From assembly GCA_014859965.1 (NCBI GenBank), contig JACZKQ010000083.1:1-64000 (forward strand): a stretch of DNA of 64,000 nucleotides, given 5' to 3'. Under the pieces are notes generated by a model. That model did no database searches. It had not been told where the DNA came from and was given only the letters and a program-made list of their open reading frames with translations. The position numbers and the translations under genes are program-made. This DNA comes from Phycisphaerae bacterium (GTDB lineage: Bacteria; Planctomycetota; Phycisphaerae; Sedimentisphaerales; Anaerohalosphaeraceae). Below, piece after piece: positions 4,411 to 63,203 of this stretch (positions are counted from its first letter, which is position 1; every line of letters starts with the position of its first letter).

Positions 4411-6195
4411 ATGGAAGTCATTGATTACGCTATCATTGGGATGTACTTCGTTGTTGTGATTGCACTGGGTTTCTGGTACCAGCGGCGGGCGGCACGGAGC
4501 CTGGATGCGTATTTCCTCGGCGGCAAGCAAATCCACTGGCTGGCCCTGGCGATGAGCGGGTCGGTTTCGAACTTCGACATCACGGGCACCATGTGGATCG
4601 TGTCGATTCTGTTTGTTCTGGGCTTCAAATCGATGTGGCACCACTGGATGTGGGGCTTCCTCATGGGGGCTTTTTTCCTGGCCTACATGGGCAAGTGGGT
4701 GCGACGATCCAACGTGATGACGGCCGCGGAATGGATGCTGACGCGGTTTGGACGCGGACCGGCGGGCATTTTTGCCAGGACCACGTACGCGCTCATGGCG
4801 GTCATTACGCTGACCAGCTTTATCGGGTATGCCTTTCAGGGCATTGGCAAGTTCGCTTCCGTGTACATTCCATTAGAGCGTGCGGCCGAGTACACCTCTG
4901 TCGAGTGGCTGCAGGTGCTATGCACGCGGCACGAGGGGCATGTTCTGGCGGCGGCGATTATGGCTGTGACGACGCTGTACGTTCTTGTCGGCGGGTTGTA
5001 CAGCGTGGTCGTTACAGATGTTGTGCAAACGGTGATTTTGACGGCGAGCAGCGTTCTCATTGCGTTCATCGCGTGGTCGAAGATGACGCCGGAGGCGTTG
5101 GCCGCCCTGCCGTCGGACTGGACCTCGCTGGCGGTTCCGTGGCACATTAAGGAATTCGCCGGCACTGACAATGCGGCTTTTGAACTGTTCGGGGCGATGG
5201 TGATCGTCTGGGTGCTCAAGGGGCTGCTGCTCAATGCCGGCGGGCCTGCGCAAATGTATGACTTTCAACGGTTTCTGGCCGCCCGCAACGCGCGCGACGC
5301 GGCCAAGGTGGGGGCGGCCTGGAGCCTTTTTCTGGTGGTCCGCTGGGCCATGGCGGTCGGGATCGTGCTGTTAGCCTTGACGGATGTCGCCGGCGTCAGC
5401 GATACGGAGAAGGTGATGCCCATGGTGCTGCGGGATTACCTGCCGGTGGGGGTTCGCGGGCTGGTGCTGGCGGGGCTGCTGGCGGCCTTTATGTCCACGT
5501 TTTCGTCGACGGTTAACAGTGCGGCTTCGTTTATCGTGCGGGATATCTGGCAGCCGCTTGAACGACACAAAGCGGACGAACGAGAGGCGGTGCACTTCAG
5601 CTATTTCGCCACAGTCTTTGTGGTGTTGTTAGGAGTCATCATCGGTTTTCAAGCCGAGTCCATCGCGAAAATCTGGAACTGGATTATGATGTCGCTGGGG
5701 GCGGCGGTGCTTGTGCCCAATGTGTTGCGGTGGTACTGGTGGCGGATGAACGGCTGGGGGTATTCGGCAGGCACGCTGGCCGGGATGCTGCTTTCGCTGG
5801 TCGTGCTGTTTCGGCCCGAAGTGCCGGCGTGGTACAGTTTCGGACTGATCTGTGCGGCGTCGCTGGGCATGTCGGTGGCTGGGTCGCTGCTTACCGCGCC
5901 GGTCGAGCAAGAGGTGCTTATGGCGTTCTACCGGTCGGTTCGGCCGTTCGGTTTCTGGCGGCCGGTGCAGGTTAAGGCGGGGCTTGGAACGGAGCAGGCA
6001 CGCGACAGATCAGAAAGTGCTTCCCTGGCGGTATTTAACGTCGTGTTAGGCATGCTCGCGATTGCCTGTGTTTATCTTGCACCCATGTACCTCGTGGGCC
6101 ACTGGTATGGGCGGGCAGGTGCGTGCAGCGCGGCTGCGGCGATTTCGGTGGGTGTTATGTACTTCACATGGTATAGAAACCTGCCGCCGGATTAG
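4411..6195 (+). CDS. Sodium:solute symporter (SSS family)
   Basis: 594 residues with about 13 to 14 hydrophobic segments and the SSS N-terminal signature (ALGFWYQRRAARSLDAYFLGGKQIHW, spanning residues 19-44). The central part contains FMSTFSSTVNSAASFIVRD, a conserved sodium-site region of the fold. It would sit in the inner membrane and import a substrate, probably a sugar or sugar acid released by the upstream glycosidase, driven by sodium. AGGATAGGAAAC lies just before the ATG. It is the third and apparently last gene of the operon; no clear terminator follows. Confidence 0.9.
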   Translation: MEVIDYAIIGMYFVVVIALGFWYQRRAARSLDAYFLGGKQIHWLALAMSGSVSNFDITGTMWIVSILFVLGFKSMWHHWMWGFLMGAFFLAYMGKWVRRSNVMTAAEWMLTRFGRGPAGIFARTTYALMAVITLTSFIGYAFQGIGKFASVYIPLERAAEYTSVEWLQVLCTRHEGHVLAAAIMAVTTLYVLVGGLYSVVVTDVVQTVILTASSVLIAFIAWSKMTPEALAALPSDWTSLAVPWHIKEFAGTDNAAFELFGAMVIVWVLKGLLLNAGGPAQMYDFQRFLAARNARDAAKVGAAWSLFLVVRWAMAVGIVLLALTDVAGVSDTEKVMPMVLRDYLPVGVRGLVLAGLLAAFMSTFSSTVNSAASFIVRDIWQPLERHKADEREAVHFSYFATVFVVLLGVIIGFQAESIAKIWNWIMMSLGAAVLVPNVLRWYWWRMNGWGYSAGTLAGMLLSLVVLFRPEVPAWYSFGLICAASLGMSVAGSLLTAPVEQEVLMAFYRSVRPFGFWRPVQVKAGLGTEQARDRSESASLAVFNVVLGMLAIACVYLAPMYLVGHWYGRAGACSAAAAISVGVMYFTWYRNLPPD

Positions 6196-6617
6196 CGGCT
6201 GTTGCGCCCTGTGTGCTTTCACCGGTAGGCGAATGGACTTTTAGCCGGTTACTGTCGTCGCGCACTCGACGGACTTGGGGCGGGTGTGCGATCTCCTCGT
6301 ATGGTCGGTAAATCATTCCTCGGAAAAGACTTATGTGTTCGTCGGCATGCCTTGTACGCAGCGGGAGGTACGCAAAATTGTTCAAACGACCTTTTGGGTT
6401 GTCAATGCGGCATTACTATAAGTTCGTCTAATTGTATTCGCAGTTTTATAGATCAATGTCCGTTTTGAGATGTTTGGTTCCAACAAAAGCTAAATTGTTG
6501 TAAGTGCATGTTTTTGAAGATTTTAGGCGTTCGCATGGAGCCTTGCGTGAGCAGGTGCCTACGGTTTATCGGATTGTGCTTGACTCTAACCGGTCTTTTG
6601 TGGTACATTATCGGCCT
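6196..6617. other. Intergenic region between symporter and folC
   Basis: About 420 bases with no convincing gene on either strand. Open frames here lack ribosome sites and conserved content. The right end holds a candidate folC promoter, listed separately. I see no U-tract terminator for the symporter operon. Confidence 0.5.
6580..6609 (+). promoter_or_regulatory. Candidate sigma70 promoter of folC
   Basis: TTGACT, an 18-base spacer, then TACATT. Transcription would begin near 6616, directly at the preferred ATG at 6618, so the message could be leaderless. This supports the 6618 start over the upstream in-frame start at 6504. Confidence 0.4.
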
Positions 6618-8045
6618 ATGGCTACAACAAAACGTAAGACTAAGAAACGCCCCGCGGCCGGGACGAGGGTGAAATCCGCATCGGTTGAAAGAGTCCGTTG
6701 CAAGACGGCTTTACGGACGTACGATCAGGGTTTGAAATACCTGTTTGAACGGACCGATTACGAGCGGCAGAATCGGCTGCGCTACAACGTGACGACATTC
6801 AACCTTGACCGGATGCACGCGCTTCTGAAGGGGCTTGCGAATCCTCATAAGAAACTGCAGACGATTCACATCGCCGGGACCAAGGGCAAAGGCTCCACCG
6901 CGACGATGCTTGCGCGGATGCTGGAGGCAAATGGTTATAAGACAGGGCTTTACACGTCGCCGCACGTGATGACACTTCACGAGCGGATCGCGATCAACGG
7001 GCTGCTGATTACCGAGCGGCAGATCTTGCGGCTGATCAATCGGGTGCACGCGGTCGTCGAGAAACTCGCAACGAATGGTGATGCGCCTACCTTTTTTGAG
7101 ATCATGACCGCAATGGCATTTATGCATTTCGCCGATCAAAAAGTGGATTTTGCGGTGATTGAGACCGGTTTGGGCGGGCGACTGGACAGTACGAACGTGA
7201 TCGAGCCGGCGGTGGTGGGGATTACCTCAATCAGTATCGACCATCAGAATCTATTAGGCAATACGATCGATTGTATCGCCAAAGAAAAAGCTGGGGTGAT
7301 CAAGACGGGCATTCCCGTGGTGACGGTGCAGCAAGATCCTAAGGCGATGCGCGTTATCAGGAAAGAAGCCTTGGCAATTAAGGCGCCGTTGAGCGTGACA
7401 GGGCGTGATATCGACTTTTCGTATCGCTTCGAGTCGTCGCGAGAGCACGGCCCGCATACGCGGGTTTGCGTGACGACGCCGACAAGTCGATTTGAGCATC
7501 TCAGGGTGCCGCTGCCGGGTGAACACCAGGCGATCAACTGCGGACTGGCTCTGGCGATTCTGGATAAGCTGAAGGGGCAGGGCTACGCAATCGACGATGA
7601 CAAGGCGATGATGGGTTTGAGCGGAACGACAATGATCGGGCGGATGGAGGTGATTTGCAGCGATCCGCGCATTATCGTGGATGCGGCCCACAACGCGGCG
7701 AGCATCAAAGCGCTGATTCAGGCGATCGGCCAGCACGTGCCTTACGATTCGATGATCATCATTTTTGGGTGCAACGGCGACAAGGATGTGCGTGGCATGC
7801 TGATGCAGCTTCAGTACGGGGCGGACAAAGTAATTTTCACGCGAAGCAATTCGCCGAAAGCGGTGTTGCCTCAGGATTTGGCGGAAATGTACACGGAAAT
7901 CTGCGGCAAGATGTGTCAGACGGCTTTGACTATCCGCGACGCCGTGCGAACCGCCAAGAGCGCTATTTCGCGGGAGGACTTGATCTGCATAACAGGGAGT
8001 TTTTATCTTGTGGGTCAGGCAAAAGAGCAGCTTGATAATTTCTAA
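6618..8045 (+). CDS. folC: Folylpolyglutamate synthase / dihydrofolate synthase
   Basis: About 475 residues from the ATG at 6618. It is a Mur-ligase fold enzyme that adds glutamate to folates in the cytoplasm. The ATP loop GTKGKGST lies near residues 87-94, followed by LYTSPHV, ETGLGGRLDSTN and, in the second domain, VDAAHNAASI. The N-terminal about 60 residues are Lys/Arg rich (MATTKRKTKKRP) and are an extension over typical FolC. The longer frame back to 6504 has no ribosome site, and a candidate promoter falls inside it, so I prefer 6618. The gene stands alone. Confidence 0.9.
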   Translation: MATTKRKTKKRPAAGTRVKSASVERVRCKTALRTYDQGLKYLFERTDYERQNRLRYNVTTFNLDRMHALLKGLANPHKKLQTIHIAGTKGKGSTATMLARMLEANGYKTGLYTSPHVMTLHERIAINGLLITERQILRLINRVHAVVEKLATNGDAPTFFEIMTAMAFMHFADQKVDFAVIETGLGGRLDSTNVIEPAVVGITSISIDHQNLLGNTIDCIAKEKAGVIKTGIPVVTVQQDPKAMRVIRKEALAIKAPLSVTGRDIDFSYRFESSREHGPHTRVCVTTPTSRFEHLRVPLPGEHQAINCGLALAILDKLKGQGYAIDDDKAMMGLSGTTMIGRMEVICSDPRIIVDAAHNAASIKALIQAIGQHVPYDSMIIIFGCNGDKDVRGMLMQLQYGADKVIFTRSNSPKAVLPQDLAEMYTEICGKMCQTALTIRDAVRTAKSAISREDLICITGSFYLVGQAKEQLDNF

Positions 8046-51295: not shown

Positions 51296-51556
51296 TTACT
51301 CCCGCCTGTTGAAAAGCTTGTAACCTTCATCCAATCTTCCATCCTCGGGAACCTCGAGAAGCAAACCAAACGCTTTCTTGGGTTCCGATTCTTCGATAAG
51401 CACTCCGCCTGTTTCCCAGCAATTATAATCTCTGGAACCTTCAGTACCCGGTGCGAATACATCCTGGACCGTTCCGTAGATAACACCCAATTCTCTCCAT
51501 GCCAACGCAACTGTATCACCTTTGAGTATCTCTTGACCATCTGCATAGAAGAACAT
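51296..51556 (-). CDS. Small cytoplasmic protein, candidate immunity protein
   Basis: 86 residues; AAAGGA lies eight bases before the ATG. It starts FYADGQEILKGDTVALAW and contains GVIYGTVQDV and EVPEDGRLDEGYKLF, an SH3-like beta pattern. There is no signal or membrane helix. It begins 25 bases after the stop of the secreted Rhs tip, the usual place for the cognate immunity gene. Immunity function is inferred from position only. Confidence 0.6.
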   Translation of the reverse strand: MFFYADGQEILKGDTVALAWRELGVIYGTVQDVFAPGTEGSRDYNCWETGGVLIEESEPKKAFGLLLEVPEDGRLDEGYKLFNRRE

Positions 51557-51581
51557 GACTTTTCCTTTGAGGCTTGGCTTA

Positions 51582-52298
51582 TCAAGGCGCTATCCCACCA
51601 CCGGCCGGTTCTGTTATGGGCACACCACCCCAAGGTATAGGGCCACCACTTACCCCAACCAGGTGCCAGAAGCACTGGCAGCCAAGCGGAGGCGGGCTCT
51701 GATTCATATTGTAGTAGTGAACGTGACTTCCCTCATACGGATAGTGCGAGTGATCGAGGTCAATTCTAAAGGCCAGCGTGCCGACTGGAGGAATACAGGG
51801 CAAACACTTCTTGGGCGGGTTTGGGCGATGGCATGTCTTTGACGGGTTATCGATAGGAATCTCAATTGGATGAACTATGGGCTGTGTAATAGGCTCCGTA
51901 ATGGGTTGCACAATAGGCTCCGTTATCGGAACAGGCACAGGCTCTGCGATGGGAACTGTTCCCGGTGGCGCTATTGTCACAGGTGGAACCACTACTGGCG
52001 GAGGCATTATCGGTATGGGTGTGACGACTGGTTTTGGTGTAACAATTGGGCTGACAATCGGGTTAAGAATTGGCCGCGGGAGAACACAAGTTTCCACGCC
52101 GATAATTATACAAGTCCCAGAGGGGTCTGTATGACTTGCCGGCGCGCTTCTCGCATATTCGTACATACTGAGACCATCTTTGTATCCAAGAGGATCATGT
52201 TGGAGGAATCTCCCTGTCTTTGTGTCGTACATTCCGTAGGATGACGCCGAGAGCGTGACGAGAAAAATCAGTAATACGGTCATTCTTGCGTGTCGCAT
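51582..52298 (-). CDS. Secreted short Rhs tip with Pro-rich linker and C-terminal effector-like domain
   Basis: 238 residues from the ATG at 52298 (AAAGGA nine bases upstream; ATG at 52307 abuts it). A signal peptide (MTVLLIFLVTLSASSYG) is fused to the end of an Rhs core (YDTKTGRFLQHDPLGYKDGL ... THTDPSGT-like closing SHTDPSGT). Then comes a Pro/Ile/Glu repeat region (PITEPIVQPITEPITQPI) and a C-terminal domain with CLPCIPPVGTLAFRIDL, HYPYEGSHVHYYNMNQ and CQCFWHLVG. The last domain has paired Cys and His and occurs at Rhs C-termini in my recollection; its activity is not known to me. Confidence 0.7.
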   Translation of the reverse strand: MRHARMTVLLIFLVTLSASSYGMYDTKTGRFLQHDPLGYKDGLSMYEYARSAPASHTDPSGTCIIIGVETCVLPRPILNPIVSPIVTPKPVVTPIPIMPPPVVVPPVTIAPPGTVPIAEPVPVPITEPIVQPITEPITQPIVHPIEIPIDNPSKTCHRPNPPKKCLPCIPPVGTLAFRIDLDHSHYPYEGSHVHYYNMNQSPPPLGCQCFWHLVGVSGGPIPWGGVPITEPAGGGIAP

Positions 52299-52315
52299 GG
52301 TCAACATTCCTTTCT

Positions 52316-52621
52316 TTATTCAGCATTTACCTCTTGCTTTAGCTTTCTATGTTGGGCTCGCAGTGCCACGTCCATGTGGGCGAGTCTGACTTGTGCAGGC
52401 ATCAGCCTGTAGGCATGGGCATACATAATCTGTGCTTCAGGGATGCGGTCGGCATCGTAGAGACAGTGTCCTCGCGTTTCGATGAAGAGGCCCAGTTCCT
52501 CGGAGGCCGTAAGCGATTGCAACAGGTGATTTAGCTCTACTTCTTCATCGTCGATCTTCTGCGGCCAATTTTTGTAATACTCGTCCGGATGGGTGTCACA
52601 GCCAGGGCAACAGGCTTCCAT
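52316..52621 (-). CDS. Small cassette protein, TPR-like helical
   Basis: 101 residues from the ATG at 52621, with AGGAAG nine bases upstream. The start MEACCPGCDTHP carries three Cys, followed by a helical stretch (ELNHLLQSLTASEELGLFIE, then YDADRIPEAQIMYAHAYRL) like one TPR. The frame is open upstream into Rhs fragment E, but that part is the repeat, not gene sequence. It stops 17 bases before the secreted tip and is probably co-transcribed. Function unknown. Confidence 0.5.
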   Translation of the reverse strand: MEACCPGCDTHPDEYYKNWPQKIDDEEVELNHLLQSLTASEELGLFIETRGHCLYDADRIPEAQIMYAHAYRLMPAQVRLAHMDVALRAQHRKLKQEVNAE

Positions 52622-52653
52622 GTTGAAGACTTCCTTGCCATCGTCCCACCGAG

Positions 52654-52972
52654 AATAATTAAAAGGGTCAGACCCCGTATTCCGCCTCTCCGCCTTCGCC
52701 ACGTAACTCTCCTGATCGTACAAACCTGCACTTGTCCCTCAATTTGCCGACGTCATCACGCGTGACCGGACTGCCCGCGATGGCCGTGTGCCGGTTCGTG
52801 ACCAACTCGACACTGAAGCTGACTGTGTCGTCGCTCAAGGTCTGCCTGCCTGTCCTGTTGCCGAGGCCGTCCATCACAAAAGAATCCTCCCGCCCCGGCC
52901 TGCCGCCACCCACAAGCTAATCGGCATCCGTCAAACGGTCCACATCGTCATAGGTGTACTCATTATACGGAG
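52654..52972 (-). pseudogene. Rhs/YD-repeat fragment E
   Basis: About 320 bp. Read on the minus strand it begins at CCGTATAATGAGTACACC (coding PYNEYTYDD) and ends at the palindrome. It has an in-frame TAG after TDAD. It matches fragments C and D closely and cannot make a full Rhs protein. Its upstream neighbour is the 214-residue membrane protein and its downstream neighbour the small TPR-like gene. Confidence 0.8.
52657..52676. repeat. Junction palindrome, copy E
   Basis: Contains AAAAGGGTCAGACCCC: AGGGTC-A-GACCCC is a near-perfect palindrome. It marks the border between Rhs fragment E and the cassette gene; identical copies border fragments D and C. Confidence 0.75.
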
Positions 52973-52987
52973 ACCGCGAACAGTAGA

Positions 52988-53632
52988 CTATGGTTTATCG
53001 ACTTTGGTTAGGGGCATTGCATCCACGACGTTGCCATTCTTATCGATTAAGACGATATCGCCGTCGCCAAAAACTATGGCGTCGAACAAGGCATCTGGCA
53101 AGCGAAGGTAGTACGGTTCGTCTGTCGCGTGACGTGTCAACTCAGGTTGGCTTAATTCTGCTCCTTTTTCAAGAGGATGCCGCAACAGACAAATGCCCAC
53201 ATGTCTCTTCTCCACTTTGCCATACGTGCGTAGCGCTTGGAACTCGCCATCCGACCCGCTTGCTTCAGAAGACGGACGAAATCCAAGTTGTGCCACTATT
53301 GCACATTCGTCAACAAAACGTATCTCTATTCTCGGGCCATAGACGGGATGCTGGTAGATAATGCAGTGATACAGTACGACTCCGCAATCATAACCAGGAC
53401 GGCTCAATAGCTCAATTGCACGCTCATAACGTGCTTGATCTACGTCCGCCCATGCACGTCCCGTGGCCAAGGCTTCTCTTAGAGATACTGCTGCCTCCTG
53501 GCGCATTTTCTCCCATTGCCCTTCTATCCTGTCAATAGCAGTCTCGGGTGTCTGTCGAAAATACTGCCATGAAACCAGTCCTCCGATTACAGCTATGACA
53601 GCCAAAACAATGCTGACGTATTTTCTGTTCAT
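52988..53632 (-). CDS. Cassette protein with N-terminal membrane anchor
   Basis: 214 residues from the ATG at 53632, with GGAGGCTCA directly before it. One helix (YVSIVLAVIAVIGGLVSWQY) anchors an outward-facing domain of mixed alpha/beta pattern (EGQWEKMRQEAAVSLREAL; YGPRIEIRFVDECAIVAQL; DGDIVLIDKNGNVVDAM). No catalytic motif is recognised. It sits between Rhs fragments D and E, starting 16 bases after the palindrome, so it is one array cassette. An immunity role is possible but inferred. Confidence 0.6.
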   Translation of the reverse strand: MNRKYVSIVLAVIAVIGGLVSWQYFRQTPETAIDRIEGQWEKMRQEAAVSLREALATGRAWADVDQARYERAIELLSRPGYDCGVVLYHCIIYQHPVYGPRIEIRFVDECAIVAQLGFRPSSEASGSDGEFQALRTYGKVEKRHVGICLLRHPLEKGAELSQPELTRHATDEPYYLRLPDALFDAIVFGDGDIVLIDKNGNVVDAMPLTKVDKP

Positions 53633-53645
53633 TGAGCCTCCGGGG

Positions 53646-53910
53646 AATAATTAAAAGGGTCAGACCCCGTATTCCGCCTCTCCGCCTTCGCCACGTAACT
53701 CTCCTGATCGTACAAACCTGCACTTGTCCCTCAATTTGCCGACGTCATCATGCGTGGCCGGACTGCCCGCGATGGCCGTGTGCCGGTTCGTGAGCGATTC
53801 GACACTGAAGCTGACTGCGTCGTCGCTCAAGGTCTGCCTGCCTGTTCCCAGATTGCCGTAAGCGTACTCATTATATGGGCGATGAAAGGTACCACGTATG
53901 ATTAGTCTAA
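53646..53910 (-). pseudogene. Rhs/YD-repeat fragment D
   Basis: About 265 bp, starting at CCATATAATGAGTACGC on the minus strand and ending at the palindrome. Upstream it carries ACTAATCATACGTGGTACC, the same flank as fragment B. It encodes part of a YD core (SDDAVSFSVESLTNRHTAIA) and has no start. Confidence 0.78.
53649..53668. repeat. Junction palindrome, copy D
   Basis: Same AAAAGGGTCAGACCCC block as at 52657, at the end of fragment D. Confidence 0.75.
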
Positions 53911-53915
53911 GCGAG

Positions 53916-54237
53916 AATAATTAAAAGGGTCAGACCCCGTATTCCGCCTCTCCGCCTTCGCCACGTAACTCTCCTGATCGTACAAACCTGCACTTGTCCC
54001 TCAATTTGCCGACGTCATCATGCGTGACCGGACTGCCCGCGATGGCCGTGTGCCGGTTCGTCAGCGACTCGACAGTGAAGCTGACCACGTCGTCGCTCAA
54101 GGTCTGGCTGCCTGTCCTGTCACCGAGGCCGTCCATCACAAAAGAATCCTCCCGGTCCGGCGTGCCGCCATCGACGAGATAATCGGCATCAGTCAAACGC
54201 TCCAGATCGTCGTAAGTGTACTCGTTATACGGGCCCT
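53916..54237 (-). pseudogene. Rhs/YD-repeat fragment C
   Basis: About 320 bp from CCCGTATAACGAGTACAC to the palindrome, encoding PYNEYTYDDLERLTDADYLV and onward without stop until the border. Unlike the others it has no cassette gene after the palindrome: fragment D follows at once. Confidence 0.78.
53919..53938. repeat. Junction palindrome, copy C (no cassette)
   Basis: Same block as copies D and E. On the minus strand it is followed directly by CGCTTAGACTAATCATACG, the coding tail of another cassette. Confidence 0.75.
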
Positions 54238-54255
54238 AAAAGCTACCGCGTACCT

Positions 54256-54987
54256 TTAATTCTGGCCGAATACCGACCAATCATGGCTCATATTTGCATA
54301 TTCCCATTTTGCAAGAAAGTACTCATATTGGAGAATTGCTATCTTTGGGCCCGAAAATGCGCACTTAAAATAAGTGACAGCCGCAGTCTCGTCGCCTTGT
54401 TCCAAACATTTCATGCCTGCCCAGAAATTTGCTCGGCATAGTCGTCGATCTTCAATAGACCCCCTTTCCTCATCCTTCCAATCATACAAGAATACATCAT
54501 CAGGCACTTTGTCCAGCAAAAAACCAGCTATCGTTGCGGTCCCTCGCCAACCACTGAATTCTCTATAGTCTTCTACCTTCCAATAACGCTTTAATTTCTT
54601 CAACGATTGTTTAACAAGTTTTTCATCACCAAGCCGCTGCCCCGCATACCATAAAATCAATGGAGTATCGGGTGCCCCCGGACAAGCAGCAAACTGTGTA
54701 TTAATAGACTCCTTCCAGAACTTTATCGCAGATGAAGTATTTTCAAGAAACCATTCTATCATTCCCAAATTGATAAAATCATCTTCGATTGTGTGTTCAG
54801 ATTTTTCGATGATCATTTCACAATTAACCTTTGCTATTTGCCATTCACCGATGTCCATTAGCACCATATTATGATTGCGCAAATCTCCTAATTCACCGCT
54901 TTGTTTATACTCACTTTCAAATAGGTCAAGACATTCAATGCTTGGTGTTTTCATAAAGCGTTCCCACATGCCACCGTTTGTTACCAC
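54256..54987 (-). CDS. Cassette protein, TPR-like, candidate immunity
   Basis: About 243 residues from a GTG at 54987 (GGAG seven bases upstream; ATG at 54969 possible). All-helical with repeat-like units (DFINLGMIEWFLENTSSAIK; FWAGMKCLEQGDETAAVTYF). No signal or membrane segment, so it is cytoplasmic. It resembles the TPR-type immunity proteins found after polymorphic toxin tips, without a toxin partner here. The frame is open through fragment B upstream, which gives a false 307-residue product. AT content is visibly higher than in flanking core genes. Confidence 0.6.
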   Translation of the reverse strand: MVTNGGMWERFMKTPSIECLDLFESEYKQSGELGDLRNHNMVLMDIGEWQIAKVNCEMIIEKSEHTIEDDFINLGMIEWFLENTSSAIKFWKESINTQFAACPGAPDTPLILWYAGQRLGDEKLVKQSLKKLKRYWKVEDYREFSGWRGTATIAGFLLDKVPDDVFLYDWKDEERGSIEDRRLCRANFWAGMKCLEQGDETAAVTYFKCAFSGPKIAILQYEYFLAKWEYANMSHDWSVFGQN

Positions 54988-55002
54988 AACAGTCTCCGGA
55001 TT

Positions 55003-55022
55003 AACTAAAGGGGTCAGCCCCC
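55003..55022. repeat. Junction palindrome, copy B (variant)
   Basis: AACTAAAGGGGTCAGCCCCC: the GGGGTCAG core is kept but the right arm is changed to CCCCC. It marks the end of fragment B. Confidence 0.6.
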
Positions 55023-55356
55023 GTTTCCACGGCTCGCCCGACTCGTCGACCATGCGAATCCGCCGGCCTAAGGCGTCGCAGGCATACTCGGCCACGTCAT
55101 TGCTCGACGAATCCTCGATCTTCACCACGCGGTTCTCATAGTCATAGGAGTACTTGGAGCCGTCCTTGTCGACAGTCAAATTCCCCGCATGTCATGCGTG
55201 ACCGAACTGCCCCCGATGGCCGTATACCGGTTCGTGACCGACTCGACAGCAAAGCTGACTGTGTCGTCGCTCAAAGTCTGGCTGCCTGTTCCCAGATTGC
55301 CGTAAGCGTACTCATTACATGGGCCCTCAAAGGTGCCACGTATGATTAGTCTAAGC
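55003..55356 (-). pseudogene. Rhs/YD-repeat fragment B
   Basis: About 350 bp. It begins with CGCTTAGACTAATCATACG and ATGTAATGAGTACGC on the minus strand, has a frame break near 55180-55195, and then encodes KYSYDYENRVVKIEDSSSND and ALGRRIRMVDESGEPWKRG. It extends further into the core than C-E. Confidence 0.78.
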
Positions 55357-55858
55357 GTGATTTTCCTATCGCGGCCAGCATTTCATCTGCAATCCTTAAG
55401 GTCTCTTCGTTCGTTTCAGCCATGAACCCATAATACGTTGATGCAAGTCTGTTCTGGAGTGCGTCTAGCTTGGCCTGCTGCCCATTGTAAACAACGAAAA
55501 ACACTCCTTCGTTATAGTCGTAAGTGATAGCCAGAAATTCTCTGTTCGTACCATCAATGTCCGTCCAAGTAACACCAGTATAATAATAATCCTGTTCCCA
55601 CAGAATTCGATCAAGTTCTTCATTCAGCTTGACCTTCTTGCATTCAAAAGCTCCATACTTCCAGGTATCCTCTCCGAATCGGTGCCCACAGAACTCCCAA
55701 TCATCTTTGACCTCCCGTATCCCAAGCTCCTTTCGAACTTCATTGGTCTTGGCAACATCCGACACAGGTTCCTTCTTGTATGGCGGTTCCTTCACGCACC
55801 CGTGGCCCACCAAAACGCCGAGACTCAGGACAGAAACCAAAATGTAATGTCTTCCCAT
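55346..55858 (-). CDS. Cassette lipoprotein
   Basis: 170 residues from the ATG at 55858 (AAGGAG six bases upstream; the ATG at 55864 abuts it). The lipobox is LVGHGCVKEP. The mature part is soluble, mixed alpha/beta (GHRFGEDTWKYGAFECKKVK; FLAITYDYNEGVFFVVYNGQ). It would be an envelope protein. Its last codons (CGC TTA GAC TAA) lie in the border block shared with fragment D. Family not recognised; periplasmic immunity is one possibility. Confidence 0.65.
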   Translation of the reverse strand: MGRHYILVSVLSLGVLVGHGCVKEPPYKKEPVSDVAKTNEVRKELGIREVKDDWEFCGHRFGEDTWKYGAFECKKVKLNEELDRILWEQDYYYTGVTWTDIDGTNREFLAITYDYNEGVFFVVYNGQQAKLDALQNRLASTYYGFMAETNEETLRIADEMLAAIGKSRLD

Positions 55859-55910
55859 TCGCATCTCCTTACAGCAGTTTTGGACCGGGTCTCATTATTT
55901 ATAGATCTTT

Positions 55911-56051
55911 CCACAAGCCAATCGGCATCCGTCAAACAGTTCAGATCATCGTAAGTGTACTCATTATACGGAGCCCCGGCCTGATGTGCAAACGTTTTCC
56001 GATGGATATTGTTCCCATTAAGCCCGTACCCATACCGGAACTTCGCCACGG
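55911..56051 (-). pseudogene. Rhs/YD-repeat fragment A
   Basis: About 140 bp encoding VAKFRYGYGLNGNNIHRKTF and PYNEYTYDDLNCLTDADWLV. It is about 90% like part of fragment F on the opposite strand. Its end is followed by ATAATGAGACCCGGTCC (minus strand), a junction block also seen after fragment F. At its other side, CTGACCCCTATTC borders the hflX end. Confidence 0.78.
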
Positions 56052-61796: not shown

Positions 61797-63203
61797 GGCG
61801 CAGGCGAACCCTATAATGAGTATACCTGTGACGATCTGGATCGCCTGACGGATGTCACCTACCAAAGCGCTGAGACGGAAATGTTCAATATGGACAATCT
61901 GGGCAATCGAACGAGTGTCACCAAGCGCGATACGGCCACCGATACCTATGCGCTCGACAGCGCGACGAACCGTTACGACGCATCCACGGGCGGGCCGTAT
62001 GAGGTGACGTGTGCCTACGATGCGGCCGGAAACACGACACAGGACAAGGACAACTACGCATACTGGTACGACTACGAGAATCGCGTCGTCAAGATTGAGG
62101 ACTCCAGCGAGGTCACTGTGGCACTCTATGATTATGACGCCCTGGGCAGGAGAATCAGGGAGAAGAAAGACTTCGTCGACTCCGTGCCCTCTGTGGTTAC
62201 GTTGTTCTACTACAACCCCGACTGGCAGGTCCTGGCCGAGTACGACGCCACAGGCCCGCAGGCGGTGCAGTTGCGATACTTCGTCTACGGCAACTACATC
62301 GACGAGCCTTTGGTCATGCACCGCCAAAGCGACGGCGAAGACTACTACTACGGCCACGACCACCTGTACTCCACGGTCGTCCTGATCGACGACACCGGCA
62401 ACGTAGTCGAACGCTGCGAATACGACGCTTACGGCACGGTCCACATCATGGACGCCTCGTATAATCCACGAACCGTGAGCGCCTATGGTAACCCCTACTC
62501 CTTCACCGGCCGACGGCTGGATGTGCTCGATGGGGGTGCCCTCGTTAGAATGCATTACCGGCACAGAGACTATGACAGTTATGCGGGGAGATTTGGGCAG
62601 CAGGATCCTTTGGGGCTTGCTCTGGACCGATTACGGGAAACTCCATTCACACCATGTATACAGTACAACGATGGCATGAATCTGCATCAGTATTGTGAAT
62701 CACAACCGATAGACCGCTCAGATCCGTCGGGGACGAGTTCTTGGGGTATGTATCCGATCCAACCTCCAGATGAAGTGCGGATTTATGAATACCAGAACCC
62801 CGAACCCTTTGGTCATGCAGGTTTTGTGATAAACAGCATCGAATGGGATATCGATTTTGGGCCGAGCGATCTTCCCAGTGATGGTTACTTCGAAGGATAT
62901 GTCGGGCGATGTCCCTATGATACTCTAGGGGGTGGTGTCCCTTCTACAAACGCGCACAAAGTTGAACTAAGAATCGGCCGTGGAAGGATGCGGCTGGGTC
63001 CCAAGAGAGGGCAGCCATGCTGCAAGGTGAGTATTTCCGACGCCCTTGCATGTGTAATTGAATCGTGCAGCCAATGGAACCATACGCCATACATCTTCCC
63101 CTTCAGAAACTGTCGAACGTTTGTGCGCAACACAAAAATTAACTGTTGTCTAGAGGCCGAACGTGATGCGCTTGACAATATAGACGACATATGGCTGCCT
63201 TAG
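61797..63203 (+). CDS. Rhs core fragment G with C-terminal papain-like candidate toxin
   Basis: Open for 469 codons, first ATG at 61881 (440 residues) without a good ribosome site, so it may be a silent tip. YD repeats (TYALDSATNRYD; YWYDYENRVVKIED; FVYGNYIDEPLVMHRQ) lead to the core end (FGQQDPLGLALDRL ... YCESQPIDRSDPSGT). The last about 165 residues are a toxin-like domain with FGHAGFVI (His) and a later RNCRTFVR (Cys). This His-first, Cys-last order matches permuted papain-like folds, suggesting an amidase or peptidase. Cys-rich ending KINCCLE. The immunity candidate follows after 13 bases. Confidence 0.75.
   Translation, partial: GAGEPYNEYTCDDLDRLTDVTYQSAETEMFNMDNLGNRTSVTKRDTATDTYALDSATNRYDASTGGPYEVTCAYDAAGNTTQDKDNYAYWYDYENRVVKIEDSSEVTVALYDYDALGRRIREKKDFVDSVPSVVTLFYYNPDWQVLAEYDATGPQAVQLRYFVYGNYIDEPLVMHRQSDGEDYYYGHDHLYSTVVLIDDTGNVVERCEYDAYGTVHIMDASYNPRTVSAYGNPYSFTGRRLDVLDGGALVRMHYRHRDYDSYAGRFGQQDPLGLALDRLRETPFTPCIQYNDGMNLHQYCESQPIDRSDPSGTSSWGMYPIQPPDEVRIYEYQNPEPFGHAGFVINSIEWDIDFGPSDLPSDGYFEGYVGRCPYDTLGGGVPSTNAHKVELRIGRGRMRLGPKRGQPCCKVSISDALACVIESCSQWNHTPYIFPFRNCRTFVRNTKINCCLEAERDALDNIDDIWLP

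Follow-up and report, generated by a model that had tools for sequence, protein, structure and literature searches.

The gene considered here lies in a stretch of 64,000 nucleotides from a Phycisphaerae bacterium of the Anaerohalosphaeraceae (GenBank assembly GCA_014859965.1, contig JACZKQ010000083.1, positions 1 to 64,000 of the forward strand), which as a whole is termed the window. It encodes a protein of 238 residues, here called mini-Rhs, in which a signal peptide is joined straight to an Rhs core end of about 40 residues (the Rhs tip), followed by a linker rich in Pro, Ile and Glu and a Cys/His-rich C-terminal domain (Table 1). These elements had all been named in a preliminary description of positions 51296-52621, and they are present as stated there: translation from ATG 52298 yields exactly 238 residues, the ribosome-site-like AAAGGA stands 9 nucleotides before it, and an open reading frame (ORF) of 86 amino acids, resembling an immunity gene, begins 25 bp after the stop codon. 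The region must nevertheless be divided: 52316-52621 is not part of the mini-Rhs gene and belongs to the remnant of a different gene, encoding a transglutaminase-like protein (TG).

Table 1. Features of the mini-Rhs locus (window coordinates).
Feature	Positions	Strand	Basis or remark
Putative cognate immunity gene, 86 amino acids	51296..51556	-	Small homologue behind the equivalent toxin domain in five other genomes
Mini-Rhs coding sequence, 238 amino acids from ATG 52298 (in-frame alternative ATG 52307)	51582..52298	-	ORF 51582-52307
C-terminal toxin-type domain, KCLPCIPPVGTxxYRxD...HxH...MxQSPPxxCxCFW family	51585..51857	-	Homologues, 4 ending full-length Rhs
Pro/Ile/Glu-rich linker	51858..52079	-	Sequence
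Rhs tip (core end), DPLG-X19-DPSG, Rhs aspartyl autoprotease motif	52116..52232	-	TIGR03696
Signal peptide, residues 1-22	52233..52298	-	Sequence; equal position in relatives; predicted helix
AAAGGA, ribosome-site-like, ahead of ATG 52298	52308..52313	-	Sequence
3' remnant of TG (Transglut_core2/TPR protein), without membrane helix, catalytic Cys and His	52316..52657	-	
Duplicated Rhs-core DNA (repeat family D1), joined to the TG remnant	52643..52942	-	Copies 53635-53934 and 53905-54204
Exact 32-bp repeat at the TG break point	52653..52684	-	Also 53645-53676 and 53915-53946

Architecture of the mini-Rhs protein

Residues 1-22 of the protein (MRHARMTVLLIFLVTLSASSYG) have the form typical of a Sec signal peptide, and residues 2-23 are modelled as a helix by AlphaFold, at low overall confidence (predicted local distance difference test, pLDDT, 54; predicted template modelling score, pTM, 0.20). 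The Rhs core end adjoins this segment directly: residues 20-61, counted from ATG 52298 (DNA 52241-52116), match the TIGR03696 profile (Rhs_assc_core) with E 6e-10 and 39.4 bits against a cut-off of 32.5, and the core end that marks Rhs toxins is thus present. The Rhs aspartyl autoprotease motif is DPXG-X18-DPXG, or DPXG-X19-DPXG in Tse5 (PMC10684867), and the tip is assigned to it because the spacing of DPLG-X19-DPSG fits. A YD/RHS repeat shell is absent from the gene, the gene upstream contains no Rhs frame, and no large repeat region of the kind seen in WapA-type proteins separates the signal peptide from the tip. The preliminary description had itself singled out a frameshifted longer rhs gene as the explanation that would undo its proposal; this candidate was checked and rejected, given an in-frame TGA (52322-52320) 12 nucleotides ahead of the first ATG of the mini-Rhs ORF, a non-Rhs ORF upstream, and the identical junction in other genomes. 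A search for other short proteins in which a signal peptide is followed by the core end, proposed in the same description, found them in many other genomes, and because the architecture recurs it is taken to be selected and not accidental.

The C-terminal domain belongs to a family with good-scoring matches in 7 further genomes, in 4 of which it closes a longer Rhs frame. Behind the tail, 5 of these loci carry a follower resembling the 86-residue ORF of the window, with a similarity of about 30% that spans its length. This recurrent pairing therefore ties tail and follower together, by association, as a putative toxin/immunity pair, so that the mini-Rhs has a variable C-terminal domain with a cognate immunity gene, toxicity and protection being predicted. 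Searches with the tail gave no significant match in Pfam, in NCBIfam (beyond the Rhs tip) or in PADLOC, no sequence relative in the PDB, and no match in phage and plasmid collections.

A transglutaminase-like partner gene

Intact relatives of the truncated upstream gene encode proteins that combine a Transglut_core2 domain (PF13369) with a membrane helix and TPR-like helices. The PF13369 scores of three intact TG proteins are 33.3 and 24.6, above the gathering threshold of 23.5, and 16.1, below it. Cys184, His210 and Asn223 are invariant in 30 of 30 TG sequences, and position 225 is either Glu or Asp; since Cys184, His210 and Glu/Asp225 are kept throughout, the catalytic set appears to be complete. 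The Lys-rich N-terminus ahead of the helix suggests that the catalytic and TPR part is periplasmic. When one member (L129, 6001-7077) was modelled (pLDDT 84.7, pTM 0.76), its closest structure was menin (PF05053), with a VIA-align Z of 15.5 and 4.5 Å over 246 residues at 10% identity; the best non-menin entry reached Z 9.4, and Foldseek alone gave E 4e-3. Menin binds peptides in a pocket, so recognition of the mini-Rhs tip by TG is conceivable, as a testable idea only, a likeness of predicted folds being no proof of function. Although the folds are alike in prediction, TG is bacterial and membrane-anchored, and it has retained a catalytic Cys that is missing from human menin (PMC10318531).

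A housekeeping paralogue of TG occurs in most of the 161 genomes of the order. The TG subfamily, clearly separated from it, was found in 7 of them, the window included (E <= 2e-17, TG-only search), and in all seven a gene with a signal peptide and Rhs tip adjoins TG. It lies directly downstream in six and upstream in one (G491), and in another genome (G012) the tip beside TG is degenerate. In the class, TG is found at E <= 1e-25 in 45 of 397 genomes, and the TG alignment, run against the species of GTDB (85,000), returned 41 loci, mostly from bins of Planctomycetota and Verrucomicrobiota, with one isolate (Verrucomicrobium sp. BvORR106), whose module is intact (L155, TG at 5779-7008 and mini-Rhs at 7042-7887). 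For a non-circular scoring of these neighbourhoods, a tip profile was built from 46 Rhs core ends preceded by at least 75 Rhs residues and used in a six-frame search of the 1 kb downstream of each distinct TG. A tip was present in this interval at 41 of 47 loci (42 of 48 at a looser threshold), as against none of 20 control regions beside the housekeeping paralogue, two of which were short. The start of the mini-Rhs gene mostly falls between -4 and +70 bp from the TG stop, with nine exact 4-bp overlaps. No conserved gene was seen upstream of TG.

The proteins encoded next to TG largely repeat the design of the window copy. A hydrophobic stretch precedes the tip by no more than 45 residues in 35 of 42 cases and usually ends at an A-x-A-like site, after which the tip begins with Y-x-P/Y-D-x-x-x-GRF. 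Across 26 mini-Rhs sequences, D35, Y46, D58 and G61 are the sole invariant columns, and D35 and D58, present in 26 of 26, are by motif the two autoprotease aspartates; self-cleavage at the tip is predicted from their conservation. The preliminary description had regarded the window protein as a free secreted effector. Its shell-less tip behind a signal peptide is indeed recurrent, but that view leaves out the membrane-bound transglutaminase-like protein whose gene, in other genomes, almost always directly precedes it.

Two of the modules, both from the window's own family, lie amid phage genes, which PHROGs assigns to portal, head protease and major head proteins (L090, G029:C103, 515-1981 and 3495-4517; L126, G012:C16, 4670-8138). 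Prophages can thus carry the TG/mini-Rhs module.

Variable tails, shared cassettes and the state of the window copy

The conserved tip is followed by tails that are highly diverse: 37 of them fall into 32 BLAST clusters, where cluster and gap counts may be too high by at most one, as one of the 38 listed mini-Rhs (L141) has no tip and was picked in error. Recognizable domains among 26 members are the M35 peptidase (twice), TNT (once) and Ntox44 (once). A simple rule assigns a lipobox or a hydrophobic N-terminus to 22 of 26 follower genes, which would fit a need for protection beyond the cytoplasm; the follower in the window is an exception. The name of the TG family, and the predicted export of both proteins, would also suit an enzyme that fixes an exported non-toxin protein to the cell surface or wall for decoration or adhesion, all the more as the function of PF13369 is unknown (PMC10318531). 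However, hypervariable tails of these kinds together with specific small followers are hallmarks of polymorphic toxins, and a surface substrate is accordingly regarded as very unlikely.

Toxin domains are shared between mini-Rhs and longer Rhs genes. For instance, the tail of one mini-Rhs (L091) is homologous to that of a longer Rhs (L064; 39%, E 6e-29), the tail of another (L132) to that of an Rhs on contig C102 of the window's own genome (38%, E 1e-15), and the tail of the prophage-borne L126 both to that of L034 (40%, E 1e-34) and to the end of a longer Rhs gene in the window itself (61881-63203, plus strand; 28%, E 2e-11). In one genome (G043), an unusual LDY-TGRWLS tip is common to mini and longer Rhs. 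The same genome holds an array (contig C12, L058/L091) of one intact TG and four mini-Rhs genes with different tails, three of which stand as extra copies behind the intact pair, at least two being preceded by a fragment of the TG 3' end. This looks like cassette duplication with the TG 3' end as a homology arm.

Such sharing, the extra copies and common tip of G043, and the Rhs-core fragments that surround the window copy are also what speaks for a silent store, in which mini-Rhs genes would be mere recombination donors, the tip and the TG 3' end being the homology arms that bring toxin/immunity pairs into full-length rhs genes, and the signal peptide being incidental. A pure DNA store would, however, require neither conservation at the protein level nor co-translation. 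Because protein-level conservation across two phyla extends to the signal peptide, the two autoprotease Asp and the catalytic residues of TG, and because the -4 bp overlaps suggest co-translation of TG and mini-Rhs, this explanation is disfavoured and considered unlikely.

In the window, the upstream ORF (52316-52723, minus strand) stops 17 nucleotides ahead of ATG 52298. From about 52657 onward it has 50% identity to the C-terminal part of a related protein of about 360 amino acids (L127), and it lacks most of the PF13369 core. The break coincides with a 32-bp repeat (CGGAATACGGGGTCTGACCCTTTTAATTATTC) found in three exact copies, where none would be expected by chance; its core (GGGGTCTGACCC) resembles REP-type mobile elements. 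We propose from this arrangement that TG was cut by recombination with the Rhs repeats. Both the window and the G043 array show orphaning at the TG 3' end by duplication or recombination, which has thus occurred more than once.

Truncation at a repeat with three copies, in the midst of broken Rhs pieces and in a genome where intact TG was not found, might also point to decay, a deletion between Rhs repeats having left, among dead rhs fragments, an ORF that is open by chance and has no function. Against this, the frame runs uninterrupted over 238 codons, its signal peptide and both Asp are preserved, and a ribosome site precedes it. The putative immunity gene 25 bp further on is likewise intact and is of the kind that this toxin domain would lead one to expect, and the signal peptide-tip design, being common to other genomes, was not created locally. 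We therefore judge simple decay to be improbable.

The neighbouring region (52643-55976, minus strand) consists of Rhs-core fragments interleaved with non-Rhs ORFs that resemble exported orphan immunity genes. These include an ORF with a hydrophobic N-terminus (52988-53632) and a lipoprotein-like ORF (55346-55864), both on the minus strand; at 54256-55179 (minus strand), an Rhs piece is fused to an unrelated ORF.

A proposed three-gene module and its place among known systems

Taken as a whole, the mini-Rhs probably supplies the toxin in a polymorphic-toxin module of three genes (TG / mini-Rhs / immunity), where TG would handle the toxin. The literature searched, which covered few subscription journals, describes no TG/mini-Rhs pair, and the module is read as undescribed so far.

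Several observations weigh against this interpretation. No tip was detected in the downstream kilobase of 6 of the 47 TG loci, and mini-Rhs genes without TG exist (G010 and the extra copies of the G043 array), so that TG may be dispensable. Nearly all surveyed loci come from metagenome bins. The window tail itself gives no match to Ntox24 (PF15529, a predicted metal-independent RNase), a distant likeness to which is confined to relatives and stays below threshold (three of eight tails, best 22.4 bits versus 24), and can serve as a hint only. Finally, the TG of the window is broken, having lost helix, Cys and His, and no intact one was found elsewhere in its genome, which makes the function of this copy doubtful. 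For this last reason the window copy is more likely to be a toxin/immunity cassette that is orphaned or kept in reserve and whose function is uncertain, and the earlier statement that it looks expressed retains only the ribosome site as its basis.

For the module in its intact form, we propose Sec export of the mini-Rhs followed by signal-peptidase cleavage at the tip, which would leave the Rhs autoprotease segment as the start of the mature protein. TG, anchored to the inner membrane and presenting its catalytic and TPR domain to the periplasm, would bind the tip and process the toxin or pass it on, replacing the missing Rhs shell. The freed tail, which would have to cross the outer membrane and enter target cells, would hit competitors, and the immunity protein, often exported, would guard the producer. 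New tails would arise by recombination of tip, tail and immunity cassettes common to full-length Rhs genes, and in the window recombination with Rhs repeats would have severed TG, leaving an orphan toxin/immunity cassette. A more far-reaching possibility, put forward tentatively and as rather doubtful, is that this constitutes a distinct delivery principle, found widely among Planctomycetota and Verrucomicrobiota and in some cases prophage-borne, whereby a catalytically intact, menin-like TG of the inner membrane reads the bare autoprotease tip as a sorting tag and substitutes in trans for the 100-kDa shell; it would hold and process whatever toxin is fused to the tip, and then release it.

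The components are partly familiar from other systems. Full-length Rhs proteins such as RhsA, Tse5 and Rhs1 of the type VI secretion system (T6SS) likewise have a DPXG-X18/19-DPXG core end, a variable toxin and an adjacent immunity gene (PMC10684867, PMC8765631), whereas the mini-Rhs has no YD-repeat shell, N-terminal plug, PAAR or T6SS domain, and its signal peptide abuts the tip. Sec-exported Rhs proteins of the WapA type also combine a signal peptide, an Rhs core end and a polymorphic tail, and by its own sequence and its relatives the window mini-Rhs appears to share their Sec signal peptide. WapA has a complete large repeat region, whereas in the mini-Rhs only about 40 residues of core end are left, and a TG gene stands in front. 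The orphan Rhs-CT modules of Salmonella are likewise shell-less tails with immunity genes beside full-length rhs; in the parts of that report consulted here, they are described as intracellular toxin-antitoxin pairs, with no signal peptide or TG partner mentioned (PMC7043789). Zhang 2012 (PMC3482391) reported toxins in which a transglutaminase-like domain also follows a membrane helix and is combined with Rhs parts, but there in a single polypeptide, ahead of an RHS array and with the catalytic residues lost; TG is encoded by a separate gene, keeps its Cys, His and Glu/Asp and has no RHS array, and does not belong with them. As the defining shell was sought and is absent, the module is classed as a variant of polymorphic toxin systems and falls outside the Rhs toxins proper.

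In the prevailing view, Rhs toxins depend on a large shell for caging and delivery, and a recurrent version that has dispensed with it while retaining exactly the autoprotease tip makes the role of the tip itself directly testable. The uncharacterised PF13369 family thereby gains a genetic context, and a toxin arsenal is added for phyla whose secreted antagonism has been little studied. The repeated occurrence of the module, in dozens of genomes from the Planctomycetota and Verrucomicrobiota, suggests that Rhs toxins may also leave the cell by a shell-free export route.
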